The position numbers and the translations under genes are program-made. A stretch of 64,000 nt of DNA, taken from positions 62,001 through 126,000 of the forward strand of contig NZ_WMKA01000004.1 in NCBI RefSeq assembly GCF_009711085.1. Direction: 5' to 3'. Positions 3,383 to 47,179 of this stretch are shown one piece after another; position 1 is the first letter of the stretch, and every line of letters begins with the position of its first letter. Source of the stretch: Cellulosimicrobium composti (GTDB taxonomy: Bacteria > Actinomycetota > Actinomycetes > Actinomycetales > Cellulomonadaceae). Under the pieces are notes generated by a model. That model was not told the DNA's origin. It ran no database searches and saw only the letters and a list, made by a program, of their open reading frames with translations.

Positions 3383-3390
3383 GCATCCCG

Positions 3391-3470
3391 CCGAACACGG
3401 GGTTGGTGTCGTTATCCGCCCGATAACGACACCAACCCCGTTCTCGGCGGCGAGGAAGCTCGTGTTCGAC
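3391..3470 (+). repeat. Palindromic repeat unit, copy 1 (57-bp hairpin + 23-nt tail)
   Basis: The first 57 bp form two 26-nt arms around a 5-nt loop; the inner 19 bp (from CGGGGTTGGTGTCG to GTTATC) pair perfectly and the outer end has a few mismatches. A 23-nt tail (CGGCGAGGAAG...TTCGAC) follows. The same 57+23 layout recurs at 47100-47179 and, with a diverged tail, at 17005-17084. It lies between the convergent permease and MFS genes and could act as a terminator, but its recurrence as a defined unit indicates a REP/MITE-like element. Confidence 0.85.
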
Positions 3471-14799: not shown

Positions 14800-16527
14800 T
14801 CAGCCCAGGCGGGTCACCGTCGGGTCGTCACCCAGGCGGAGCTGCAGCAGGCTGCCCTGCACCGCGGCGTACCGCGTGCTGGTCGCCGTGTCGGTGCTCC
14901 ACGCGACCGCGCCGTCCCGGAGGTCGAGCGCGACGAGCCGCGTCGTGCTGTGCTCGTCGTCCTCCCACGCCGAGACGGCGAGGAGCGCGCGGGCGCCGTC
15001 CGTGAACGCCTGCCCGACGTGCAGCATCCCGGGGGCCACGGTGGGCCCCGCGCCGTCGTCGACCAGCTCGTCGATCGTGCGGGTCCACAGGGTGCGCCCG
15101 GTCTCCACGTCGACCCCGACGAGGACCGAGCGCATGCCCTGGAGGACGACCGCGACGCCGTCCGCGACGACGTACGCGATCTCGGGGGAGTTCACCTCCC
15201 CGGTCTCCCAGCGCGTGCGCCCGGCCGCGTCGTGCGCGACGAGGTCCGTGACCTGCCGCGTGAGCACGAGGTCCCGCGCGGTCCCGTCCGTCGCGATCGG
15301 GACGAGCACCTCGCCCGGCGGCTCCCACCGGAGGGCGCCGTCCGGCTCGAGCACGGCTGCGGCACCCGTGCCGTCCGCCGCTGCCGACTCGCGGGCGTCC
15401 ACGCGCAGGAGCGCGTCGTCCGGGAGTCGCCTGACCGCGTCCGCGGGAGCCTCCGGGTCGTCGACCCGCGTGCCCTCGGGGGTGAACCTCGCGTCGACGC
15501 CGCAGCCCCGCACGGCCACGAGCCCGGCGGAGCGGCTGACCGTCCCGCTGTCGAGGTCGGCATAGGTGGTGTCCTCGGTGGGGGAGTACGGGCGGCAGTC
15601 GCCCTCCCCGGCGACGAAGGGCAGCTCGTGCTCCCAGCGGACGGTCCCGGTCCGGGCGTCCTCCAGCGTGACGACGGCGGCGCGCCCCGCCGACACGTCG
15701 GTGGGCAGGCCCGTCGTGGGGTCGGTGGGCACGGGTGCGGCGGGCGTGTCGCCGACGCGGCGGAAGCGCGCGACGGTGCCGTCCGGCCCGGGTGCCGACC
15801 AGCCGCGTGCCGCGTCCAGCGTGCGGGTCGTGGCGGTGCCGTCGGCGTCGAGCACGGTGACCTGCGGGGCCGGCGAGGCGGCTGTCGTGTCGACCGCCTC
15901 GCCGGTGGTCGTCGTGAGCAGCGTCCGGCTCGCGAGCGGCGAGGGGACGTCGTCGGTCACGCACACGAGCGTCTCGTCCGGCACCGGGGCCGTCAGCGCG
16001 AGCTCGAGCTCGCCGCCGCAGCGGGACGTGGGCGGCAGGGGCACGGCCCACCGGACGGTGCCGGTGTCGAGGTCGTGGGCGACGGCCTCGTCGTCGCGCA
16101 CGACGACGAGGAGGCCGGGCAGCGTCGCGAGGGCGCCCGCCTGCGGGCCGGGGGCCGACCAGACCTCGACCGGCGCGGTCGCGAGCGCGTCCACGCCCCC
16201 GGTGGACCGGCGCTGCGTCTCGGTCGACGACCGCGACGAGGCGGCGTCCACGGCCGCCATCCCGCCGAGCGTGAGGACCGCGGCGAGGACCGCGCCGACC
16301 GCGGCGCGTCGGCGGCGCCGTGCCGACCGGGCCGCCGCGGGGGCCGGGCCGGCCGCGGGTCCCGCGGGGTCGGTGCTCGCCGAGCCGGTGCTCGCTGCGT
16401 CGGCGTCGGCGCGCGCGTCCGGTGTCCCGCCCTCGGCCGCGTCGTCGTGTCGCGCGTCGTCCGCCGGCGTCGCCTCGTCGAGCGTGAAGGCGATGGTCAC
16501 GGGGTCGGGCCGTCGTCGTCGGGACAC
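14800..16527 (-). CDS. Membrane-anchored PQQ-like beta-propeller protein
   Basis: A 575-residue protein. An acidic, Ala-rich cytoplasmic N-terminus of about 75 residues is followed by RRRRRA and one membrane helix (VGAVLAAVLTLGGMAAVDA), then an extracytoplasmic beta-propeller with repeated blade motifs such as LDTGTVRWAVPL, TGTVRWEHELPF, DAAGRTRWETG, DVETGRTLWTRTI and RDGAVAWSTD. Such BamB-like propellers are usually binding scaffolds. The GTG at 16527 keeps the basic VSRRRRPDPVT; the GTG at 16500 is an alternative start. Divergent from the sugar-kinase operon. Confidence 0.88.
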   Translation of the reverse strand: MSRRRRPDPVTIAFTLDEATPADDARHDDAAEGGTPDARADADAASTGSASTDPAGPAAGPAPAAARSARRRRRAAVGAVLAAVLTLGGMAAVDAASSRSSTETQRRSTGGVDALATAPVEVWSAPGPQAGALATLPGLLVVVRDDEAVAHDLDTGTVRWAVPLPPTSRCGGELELALTAPVPDETLVCVTDDVPSPLASRTLLTTTTGEAVDTTAASPAPQVTVLDADGTATTRTLDAARGWSAPGPDGTVARFRRVGDTPAAPVPTDPTTGLPTDVSAGRAAVVTLEDARTGTVRWEHELPFVAGEGDCRPYSPTEDTTYADLDSGTVSRSAGLVAVRGCGVDARFTPEGTRVDDPEAPADAVRRLPDDALLRVDARESAAADGTGAAAVLEPDGALRWEPPGEVLVPIATDGTARDLVLTRQVTDLVAHDAAGRTRWETGEVNSPEIAYVVADGVAVVLQGMRSVLVGVDVETGRTLWTRTIDELVDDGAGPTVAPGMLHVGQAFTDGARALLAVSAWEDDEHSTTRLVALDLRDGAVAWSTDTATSTRYAAVQGSLLQLRLGDDPTVTRLG

Positions 16528-16673
16528 CCCGCGAGGGTAGCCGCACGGCGGCGTGGCGAGGTTCCCTCGCGCGCGGAGCGGCGTACCGTGGGGCGAACCG
16601 GACGGTCCCGGACGCTTGGCAAGAATCTCCACCCTTGACCACTAGCGTGAAACTTTGTGCCAGACTGTCCCTC

Positions 16674-17861
16674 GTGAGCAGGAGCACGCCCGACGGCGCG
16701 TGGGTCGTCGGGCTCGACGTCGGTGGCTCGGGGAGCCGCCTCGCTGCACGACGCCCCGGAGCCCCCTCGTCGTCCGTGGCCGCACCCGACGTCACCCTCA
16801 CCGGCCGACCCGTCGCCATCGGTCCCGCGGGGAGCGACGCGGTCGACGTGGTCCGCGACCTCCTCGCCCGGTTCCGCGCGCACGTCCCGTCCCTCGACGC
16901 CGACGGCGTCGCCGCGGCCGCCGTCGGGGCCACGGGCCTCGCCTCGCTCGTCCGCGACCCCGCCGAGCTCCACGCCGTCCTCCGCGCGGCCCTCCCCCCG
17001 TCCGCCGAGAACGGGGTTGGTGCCGTGATGGGGCCCATGACGACACCAACCCCGTTCTCGATGCCGCGCGACCCCATGCTCGACGTGCGGCCGGGCAGCG
17101 GGCCGCCGACGGCGGTCGCGGCCGACGCGCTCACCGCGCACCTCGGCGCGCTGGGCGGGCGGCCGGGGGCGGTCGTCGCGGTCGGGACGGGTGCGATCGC
17201 GCTCGGCACGGACCTGCGCGACGTGTGGCACCGCGTCGACGGGTGGGGGCACCTGCTCGGCGACCTCGGCTCGGGCTCGTGGATCGGCGCGCAGGGGCTG
17301 CGCGCGGCGGTCGCCGCGCACGACGGCCGCGACAAGGGCGGCTCGACGGCGCTGCTCGCCGCCGCGACGGAGCGCTTCGGCCCCGTGCCGACGTGGCCGG
17401 GCCGGCTCTACACGCGTGCCGACCGTGCCCAGGTGCTCGCCTCCTTCACGCCCGACGTCGCCGCTGCCGCGCACGACGGCGACGCCGTGGCCCGCCAGGT
17501 CCTCGCCGGCGCGGGCACGCACCTCGCGACGACGCTCGCGGCCGCCCTGGTCGACGGCGTCCCGCCGCTCGCCGCGGCGACGGGCGGCGTGCTCGCGATC
17601 GGGCCGCTGCTCACGGGCGCGTTCCGGGCGCGCCTCGGGGTGCTGCGGCCCGCCGTCGAGCTCGTGGACGCCGCCGGGACGCCGCTCGACGGCGCCCTGC
17701 ACCTCGCCGCGCGGCTCGCGACCGAGCCGGGGGCCGTCGTCGGGCACGCCCCGTGGCTCACGCTCGGCACCCCGCACGCCCCGCCGACAGACCCGCCCGA
17801 CCCGACCGACCGCGCGCCGGACCCGGCGCCCGCCGACCCGCACCCCACCGAGGAGGACTGA
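16674..17861 (+). CDS. BadF/BcrA-type ATPase, N-acetylglucosamine-kinase-like, carrying a palindromic repeat insert
   Basis: A 395-residue ASKHA-fold kinase. The phosphate-1 motif GLDVGGSGSRLAAR is near residue 12 and VAVGTGAIALG near residue 170, as in N-acetylglucosamine kinases of the BadF/BcrA family. Between the small N-terminal part (ending LHAVLRAALPP) and the conserved TAVAADALTAHLGALGG, an extra stretch including ENGVGAVMGP and TTPTPFS is encoded by copy 2 of the palindromic repeat (17005-17084). The reading frame stays open through it. The GTG at 16674 is chosen because it precedes the nucleotide motif by 12 codons. The stop abuts the next ATG. Confidence 0.85.
   Translation: MSRSTPDGAWVVGLDVGGSGSRLAARRPGAPSSSVAAPDVTLTGRPVAIGPAGSDAVDVVRDLLARFRAHVPSLDADGVAAAAVGATGLASLVRDPAELHAVLRAALPPSAENGVGAVMGPMTTPTPFSMPRDPMLDVRPGSGPPTAVAADALTAHLGALGGRPGAVVAVGTGAIALGTDLRDVWHRVDGWGHLLGDLGSGSWIGAQGLRAAVAAHDGRDKGGSTALLAAATERFGPVPTWPGRLYTRADRAQVLASFTPDVAAAAHDGDAVARQVLAGAGTHLATTLAAALVDGVPPLAAATGGVLAIGPLLTGAFRARLGVLRPAVELVDAAGTPLDGALHLAARLATEPGAVVGHAPWLTLGTPHAPPTDPPDPTDRAPDPAPADPHPTEED
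17005..17084 (+). repeat. Palindromic repeat unit, copy 2, inside the kinase coding sequence
   Basis: The 57-bp hairpin (17005-17061) has 26-nt arms and a 5-nt loop like copies 1 and 3; CGAGAACGGGGTTGGTG pairs with CACCAACCCCGTTCTCG without mismatch. The following 23 nt are diverged but keep the tail end (TGCTCGAC). It is translated in frame as part of the sugar kinase, in a place where related proteins have no such segment as far as I recall. Confidence 0.82.
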
Positions 17862-18749
17862 ATGGCCGCCGACGGTCTCGTCCGCATCCGTCAGTCGCTG
17901 CCGAACCTGCGACCCGCCGAGGCGCGCATCGCCGAGGCCGTGCTCGCCGACCCGGCGGCCGTCGTCGGGAAGACGATCACCGAGCTCGCGACGCTCGTCG
18001 GGACGTCGCAGGCGACGGTCGTCCGGTTCTGCCGCGCGGTCGGGTACGCGGGCTACCCCGAGTTCCGGATCGACCTCGCGCAGGCGACGAGCCGGCGCGC
18101 CGTGGAGCAGGAGCGCGCGAACGTCGCGCACGGCGAGATCGACCCGGAGGACACGCTCCAGGACGTCGTCACGAAGATCGCGTTCCACGAGGCCCGCACG
18201 ATCGAGGAGACGGCGCGCATGCTCGACCTCGACGCGCTGGAGCAGGTCGCGGAGGCGGTCGCGCAGGCGACGCGCATCGACCTGTTCGGCGTCGGGTCGA
18301 GCGGGCTCACGGCGCAGGACCTCGCGCAGAAGCTCCAGCGCATCGGCCTCGTGTGCTTCGCGTCGCCCGACCCGCACGTCCAGCTCCAGTCCGCCGCGCT
18401 GCTCGGCCCCGGCGCGGTCGCCGTCGGCGTCTCGCACAGCGGCCTCACGGTCGAGACGAACGACGCCCTGCGGATCGCGCGCGAGCGCGGCGCCACGACG
18501 GTCGCCGTGACGAACTTCCCGGAGTCCCCGCTCGTCGCGCACGCCGACGTGGTGCTCACGACGACGGCGCGCGAGACCCAGTTCCGGTCCGGCGCGCTGT
18601 CGAGCCGCATCGCGCAGCTCGCGCTCGTCGACTTCCTGTTCGTGCGCGTCGCCCAGCGCCTGTTCGACCGCACGACGGCGAACCTGCGCGCGACGTACGA
18701 GGCCGTGCAGCCGCACCGCCTCGGCTACGACCGTCGGTCGCGCCCGTGA
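17862..18749 (+). CDS. RpiR/MurR-family transcriptional regulator
   Basis: A 295-residue regulator with the RpiR HTH at residues 1-80 (LRPAEARIAEAVLADPAAV...TITELATLVGTSQATVVRFCRAVGYAGYPEFRIDLA) and a SIS sugar-phosphate-binding domain after about residue 125 (IDLFGVGSSGLTAQDLAQKLQRIG, VAVGVSHSGLTVETNDAL). The ATG starts directly after the kinase TGA with no gap. Regulators of this family sense phospho-sugars such as N-acetylmuramic acid 6-phosphate, in keeping with the amino-sugar-type kinase before it. Confidence 0.94.
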   Translation: MAADGLVRIRQSLPNLRPAEARIAEAVLADPAAVVGKTITELATLVGTSQATVVRFCRAVGYAGYPEFRIDLAQATSRRAVEQERANVAHGEIDPEDTLQDVVTKIAFHEARTIEETARMLDLDALEQVAEAVAQATRIDLFGVGSSGLTAQDLAQKLQRIGLVCFASPDPHVQLQSAALLGPGAVAVGVSHSGLTVETNDALRIARERGATTVAVTNFPESPLVAHADVVLTTTARETQFRSGALSSRIAQLALVDFLFVRVAQRLFDRTTANLRATYEAVQPHRLGYDRRSRP

Positions 18750-47001: not shown

Positions 47002-47099
47002 GGACCGGCTCCCTCGGAGGCTGTCGCGCGTCCCGGGCCGCTCGCCGTCGAGCGCCCGCGCACCCTCCATCGTAGGTCGGGGCCCACCACCCGGCCCCG

Positions 47100-47179
47100 C
47101 CGAACACGGGGTTGGTGCCGTCATCGAGCGGATAACGGCACCGACCCCGTGTTCGGCGGCGAGGAAGGTCGTGCTCGGC
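47100..47179 (+). repeat. Palindromic repeat unit, copy 3 (57-bp hairpin + 23-nt tail)
   Basis: The hairpin (47100-47156) has 26-nt arms, GAGCG loop and only two mismatches, both compatible with G-U pairing. The 23-nt tail (CGGCGAGGAAG...TCGGC) matches copy 1 at 20 of 23 positions. The unit ends exactly at the ybdD stop codon (47180-47182), between ybdD and the PCD-VOC gene. Confidence 0.85.

Follow-up and report, generated by a model that had tools for sequence, protein, structure and literature searches.

The sugar kinase gene at positions 16674 to 17861 (+ strand) of the window, the 64,000-nucleotide stretch of Cellulosimicrobium composti DNA analyzed here, contains an in-frame palindrome. 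It is very probable that this segment is a copy of a nonautonomous, REP/MITE-like palindrome of about 78 nt that has spread through the genus, and that the enzyme carries it as an in-frame passenger loop. The element forms a dispersed family, recurs in other proteins, and at the kinase site is present in some orthologs and absent from others, with the reading frame retained. In the proposed course of events, the palindrome would have spread through the genus, mostly landing directly behind stop codons, and one copy would have inserted into the kinase gene, for which the common ancestor of the genomes G000, G001, G005, and G006 is the simplest placement. The kinase would since then have carried a passenger loop of 26 to 30 residues. 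Transposition is the presumed mode of movement, and the kinase with its insert presumably still works. Here, G000 denotes the genome of the window and G011 a complete genome; the genus sample comprises 17 genomes, and the kinase comparisons use genus genomes together with G026, which belongs to a neighboring genus.

The host gene encodes a BadF/NagK-type kinase with a proposed GTG start, its frame being open already from a TTG at 16635. The protein matches Pfam PF01869 (BcrAD_BadFG; 5.3e-15, 56.1 bits) above the cutoff of 31.5, and the best structural match of its predicted fold is MurK (8zo3_A; E 2e-14). Since the NCBIfam equivalog NagK_SO3507 scores far below its cutoff (50.3 bits against 370), we give the kinase no substrate. 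The conserved unit of the element occupies 17004 to 17081 (+ strand), that is, 78 nt or 26 codons (AENGVGAVMGPMTTPTPFSMPRDPML), and is read in frame, corresponding to about residues 111 to 137 of the 395-residue kinase. An alignment column scheme and RNA folding delimit a left stem arm (17006 to 17031, + strand) that pairs with a right arm (17035 to 17060, + strand), yielding a stem of 26 pairs with a pairing fraction of 0.92. The tail (17061 to 17084, + strand) ends in ATGCTCGAC, the counterpart of a commoner tail ending in GTCGTGCTCGGC. The first-pass annotation had described a palindrome at this position that adds a segment to the kinase without breaking its frame; both statements stand, as ORF reading finds the frame from 16674 to 17861 free of stop codons through the element. 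A chance palindrome was ruled out, given that the copy folds at −51.8 kcal/mol compared with −32.8 (sd 3.4) for shuffled sequences (0 of 200 as good; z −5.6) and that reversed DNA yields no family matches.

In the predicted structure of the kinase (mean pLDDT, 82.4), the insert is modeled with low confidence as a loop bounded by helix 96-106 and strand 146-150, with residues 125-141 below 50. This is the outcome of the structural check that the first-pass annotation had proposed, and the low confidence may reflect only the thin coverage of the insert (4 of 13 alignment rows). An RpiR-type regulator gene with a SIS domain (17862 to 18749) begins at the base right after the kinase stop codon, which suggests that the two form a coupled pair.

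A DNA search with the kinase copy returned matches at many places in G000. We made a family profile from 21 copies, part of which come from the scanned sample itself, and scanned 861,787 bases of G000 with it. Of the 29 matches, one is at chance level (E 7e-3), leaving 28 copies; the same bases reversed gave none. The contigs of this sample were picked because copies like those of the window (GGT-type hits) lay on them, and a further 400,000 bases not chosen by earlier strong hits (contigs C1, C13, and C74) contain one copy, with none in the reversed sequence. With 28 copies in 0.86 Mb against 1 in 0.40 Mb, the family is thus real but unevenly spread. Besides the kinase copy, two intergenic copies lie in the window, both on the + strand. 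One (3390 to 3467) is situated between convergent genes, just past the stop codon (3382) of a + strand gene, and the other (47099 to 47176) has its tail directly against the stop codon called for a − strand gene. In G011, 147 of the best 150 candidates match a covariance model of the element, amounting to at least 75 copies; only 2 of the copies among the matches listed fall within 0.9 to 2.5 Mb of contig C1 (1.6 Mb), while other stretches are dense.

Across all 17 genus genomes, the covariance model gives 25 to 80 matches each, and it gives 0 to 14 in 41 further relatives; these figures cover the best 80 candidates at most per genome with both strands counted and are not copy numbers. G026 shows 53 such matches although its kinase lacks the insert, and the family hence reaches beyond the genus. 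Weaker hints of the family (5 to 14 matches) are seen in G025, G029, G035, and G036.

For frame and length statistics, 156 of 171 copies were kept, and those with gaps in the unit were dropped. The unit is exactly 78 nt long in 155 of the 156 copies with clean ends. The consensus ends, GCCGAGCACGAC-like and GTCGTGCTCGGC, are near reverse complements of each other, one of them also belonging to the stem. Frames are open in 99% (f0), 97% (r1), 96% (r0), 80% (f2), 26% (r2), and 24% (f1) of these copies. With a length of 26 codons and with stops rare in four of six frames, the unit could be read through. With PF01797 (Y1_Tnp) as the sole transposase profile searched, the RAYT transposase was found in none of the 17 genus genomes, the same search being positive in 5 of 14 control genomes, and a RAYT-driven REP was ruled out on these grounds.

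Most copies are placed just behind stop codons, which is a REP-like placement. In G000, 25 of 28 copies are called intergenic, with 12 in convergent, 11 in codirectional, and 2 in divergent gaps, compared with 111, 383, and 139, respectively, among all gaps of at least 20 nt in this genome, so that convergent gaps are favored over divergent ones (p 0.004). Of the 75 copies in G011, 68 are called intergenic (29 convergent, 29 codirectional, 10 divergent), 5 lie inside genes, and 2 have no clear call; the corresponding p of 0.0005 was obtained against the gaps of G000 rather than those of G011 itself. Where a G011 copy has an upstream gene end, it lies within 30 nt of that stop codon in 52 of 58 cases (median, 7). 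Gene calls for these placements come from a home-made gene caller, which counted the copies in a phosphopantetheinyl-transferase-like gene described below as intergenic and consequently undercounts gene-internal copies. A copy at L111 had first been called internal, but the frame around it has the look of a spurious antisense one, and the copy was later counted as intergenic. On contig C24 of G000, four copies crowd into 3.7 kb (L318:13695-17366), where they sit at the ends of separate called genes. There, a − strand regulator gene that we take to be MerR-like (L318:14276-14731) ends in an intergenic copy, with the element providing its last residues, PPNTGLLSSSPR, and the stop codon.

Ten kinase orthologs could be aligned. 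The segment is present in four (G000, G001, G005, and G006) and absent from six (G002, G010, G012, G013, G015, and G026), with G002 and G010 displaying a shorter, unrelated-looking spacer at the insertion site. Measured from one fixed anchor to the other, this region is 225, 213, 252, and 243 nt long in the four carriers, every length being a multiple of three. Core A forms the stem core in G000, and core B does so in G001, G005, and G006. Comparing G000 with the other carriers, 8 to 12 of 26 to 28 residues are identical within the insert and 302 to 306 of 350 to 364 outside it, where identity among the four carrier species is 84 to 91%. The first-pass annotation had asked whether close relatives lack the segment; six do, whereas three carry that segment in the same position with another stem core. 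The outcome that it named as contrary to insertion, namely, that all orthologs possess the segment but with unrelated DNA, did not occur among the ten, and its comparison to mobile palindromes inserted into proteins of Rickettsia gains support from the split into four orthologs with and six without the segment. In a small tree based on three proteins, the four carriers form one clade with G002 and G010 outside, although several nodes are weak. The orthologous flanks at insertion sites are too diverged to define a target-site duplication. A single insertion event at the kinase site would be the simplest reading.

We observe the element in frame in other proteins as well. A 4′-phosphopantetheinyl-transferase (PPTase)-like protein, a name based on model matches below cutoff, shows a profile match in 7 of 13 orthologs; among the rest, a degenerate segment is seen in G004 (by alignment only), the element is absent in G002, G010, and G015, and G000 and G013 are unclear. 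On the opposite strand, the element lies within a gene that, from its motifs, we presume to be amidohydrolase-like, the best NCBIfam match of its product being a Xaa-Pro dipeptidase model far below cutoff. Of 16 genomes with a hit, 14 have the element here, and all 12 that were aligned have it in frame. The frame of this gene in G014 is broken at the element (L072:1499-1587) and resumes from an overlapping ATGA, which gives the impression of one gene turned into two coupled genes. G008 (L273) harbors a second copy in the same gene, near the C terminus. The element also provides C-terminal extensions of FrdA in G000 and G011 and of EboE in G006 and G011, and lies inside CofC in G011 (where the protein scores above its model's cutoff) and, by similarity, in G003. 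A weak match (E 2.2e-5) is observed in oligopeptidase B of G011, a protein below its model's cutoff. The comparison of filled and empty orthologs covers the kinase, PPTase-like, and amidohydrolase-like proteins. Frame f0 is used in the kinase, PPTase-like, FrdA, and EboE proteins, all of which carry AEHD..TT..S-type peptides, and r0 is used in the amidohydrolase-like protein; on visual inspection, the frame is r1 in oligopeptidase B and resembles f1 in CofC.

For the kinase insert, pN/pS is 0.82, or 0.91 when G000 is excluded. The values are 0.98 for the insert of the PPTase-like protein (6 rows, one row left out) and 0.98 for that of the amidohydrolase-like protein (9 of 14 rows, five left out; 0.94 without G000), whereas 13 intergenic pairs, translated in the corresponding frame, give 0.53. 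Selection on amino acids was not found in these three inserts by this measure, and the case for translation of the kinase insert, which we consider likely, is therefore its retained frame.

The stem core and the tail of the element follow different patterns. Sites were considered shared when both flanks are homologous in different genomes; pairs are nonindependent and copies were gathered with core-biased queries, and on this basis tail identity is higher for shared-site pairs (0.795; n = 219) than for same-genome pairs from different sites (0.696; n = 1168), whereas core identity is lower (0.677 against 0.766). The G000 core has an identity of 0.45 to its orthologs (43 pairs) and of 0.85 to copies in the same genome (435 pairs), or 0.44 and 0.81 with slightly more pairs. 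With core-mixed models, GGT-type cores account for 24 of 28 copies in G000 versus 10 of 75 in G011, and three other G000 contigs added no other core (one copy, GGT-type). For 14 G011-G000 pairs sharing both flanks, identity is 0.634 in the core and 0.721 in the tail, with six pairs below 0.4 in core identity and three at 0.9 or above. Same-genome pairs reach 0.789 (core) and 0.665 (tail) in G000 and 0.615 and 0.670 in G011, and unrelated pairs reach 0.518 and 0.637. The contrast between core and tail is therefore smaller in this sample and absent for G011. Upon partner permutation over 14 shared G000 sites, site memory is kept by the tail (0.003) and the inner stem (0/2000), with none in the core (0.30), loop (0.11), or outer stem (0.86); tails tend to be site-specific. 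A division into two discrete subfamilies, A and B, was rejected as an oversimplification, with 40 of 171 copies outside both patterns and cores forming a range.

The G000 core is present in both the kinase and the amidohydrolase inserts of this genome. The G000 lineage may have undergone a concerted change limited to the core, a proposal on which our own opinion is evenly split. At many inherited sites, among them those of the kinase and amidohydrolase inserts, both arms would have been rewritten to GGGTTG[G/C]TG, with inner stem and tail remaining site-specific. Candidate causes are arm-by-arm gene conversion, template switching, or coevolution with a core-reading factor of shifted specificity. 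Gene conversion among REPs was reportedly proposed in a 1988 paper.

Selection might keep the element because a trans-acting factor recognizes it or because it serves as an mRNA hairpin at gene 3′ ends, in which case the kinase copy would be a working regulatory hairpin; we regard this as unlikely. Among 49 intergenic copies, one per site group, three measures of stem covariation lie beyond all 500 shuffles: 88.6% of cells are paired (77.0% when shuffled), 165 cells are changed on both sides (70.6 when shuffled), and the covariation score is 0.334 (0.144 when shuffled; slid controls, at most 0.118). However, two of the five measures are weak, namely, 15 pairs with changes on both sides compared with 13.5 (77 of 500 shuffles as high) and 39 further pair types compared with 33.8 (5 of 500). 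The position of 52 of 58 G011 copies within 30 nt of a stop codon and the excess of convergent over divergent gaps would agree with a selected hairpin, as would the pairing of 0.92 in the G000 kinase copy. The latter is an exception among intragenic copies, the stems of which have decayed to a mean pairing of 0.738 (28 copies) versus 0.878 in intergenic ones (143 copies; p 9e-11). The kinase copies of the other carriers pair at 0.65 (G001), 0.69 (G005), and 0.81 (G006), which argues that no hairpin is maintained there. In addition, the kinase region shows no Rfam match up to E 1 in positions 16600 to 17400, the sole stretch scanned, and no T-tract intrinsic terminator in positions 16500 to 17900.

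The differing cores at one kinase site, A in G000 and B in its three relatives, could mark separate insertions at a preferred target, of which the short spacer in G002 and G010 might be an empty form or a remnant. This strikes us as distinctly improbable: tail and inner stem keep site identity at the 14 G000 sites but the core does not, which is better fitted by one insertion followed by a change of core, and the tail of the G000 kinase copy has CATGCTCG in common with G005. A kinase that is a pseudogene, or an insert that is skipped through ribosome bypass or RNA loss, would leave the palindrome untranslated, and the very stable predicted mRNA hairpin (−51.8 kcal/mol) and the almost free evolution of the insert's amino acids are compatible with this. 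Such an account is nevertheless very hard to sustain against a frame that is open through the insert in four species with length differences in multiples of three, a remainder of the protein that is 84 to 91% identical among carriers, and the in-frame occurrence of the element in six other gene families, in two of which it forms the C-terminal end. We give the least credence to an ancestral segment that was lost in other lineages without any insertion. The tree is small and weak at several nodes, and either reading requires gene losses, yet six orthologs lack the segment, including that of G026 from the neighboring genus, and copies with the same sequence are dispersed elsewhere.

The reading that we favor, a dispersed palindrome carried in frame by a protein, is reminiscent of the Rickettsia palindromic elements (RPEs), which reportedly have a counterpart in Wolbachia. 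The excerpts cited here describe RPEs as dispersed palindromes with an open frame that occur in frame in unrelated protein genes and are tolerated as inserts (PMC2229807, PMC10969869), with a length of 105 to 146 bp (PMC2229807), some families being shorter repeats, and with CGTC at one end (PMC3733652). Like these, our element is palindromic, dispersed, and in frame in unrelated genes with a conserved encoded peptide. Unlike these, it measures 78 nt, ends in GCCGAG/CTCGGC instead of a CGTC tag, resides in a different host phylum with most copies intergenic, and shows the putative concerted core change. It works in the manner of an RPE, though its length, ends, and host differ. REPs, according to a partial source, are palindromes beside stop codons that prefer convergent and codirectional gaps and in some cases lie within ORFs; intragenic examples come from X. 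campestris, S. maltophilia, and O. terrae (abbreviated in this way by the source), and in one instance two species have the REP at an identical site (PMC3733652); compensatory changes are described in an excerpt on REPIN hairpins (PMC3116915). Our element is similarly extragenic near gene 3′ ends, with some copies in ORFs and compensatory hairpin changes. In contrast to REP/REPIN systems with RAYT, it occurs in genomes without Y1_Tnp (0/17), has no GTAG or CGTC end tag, and consists of one long hairpin plus a tail. The enterobacterial repeats ERIC, YAPL/RU-2, and RU-3 are described, in the excerpt cited, as small open-frame repeats that have become fused to host ORFs, including at a C terminus (PMC2229807). 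Our element shares such fusions, C termini included, while differing in sequence, size, and host. A word search in the available portions of PMC2229807, PMC10969869, and PMC3733652 gave no mention of Actinobacteria, and an excerpt of PMC12306157 provides REP counts for three Actinomycetota. In a limited search of the open-access literature, no title dealt with a protein-coding palindrome from Actinobacteria.

Palindromes that code for protein have been described chiefly in Rickettsia and Wolbachia, while some other genomes have intragenic REPs. The family described here bears on the extent to which small repeats reshape proteins; it is a GC-rich actinobacterial case with filled and empty orthologs and several host proteins, which makes the effect of the insert on enzymes directly testable. 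If the rewriting of cores is true, part of a protein would have been replaced through the homogenization of a repeat. If the change is concerted, the G000 lineage would represent a natural experiment on the homogenization of dispersed hairpins in bacteria, or on a factor and its many sites changing together.
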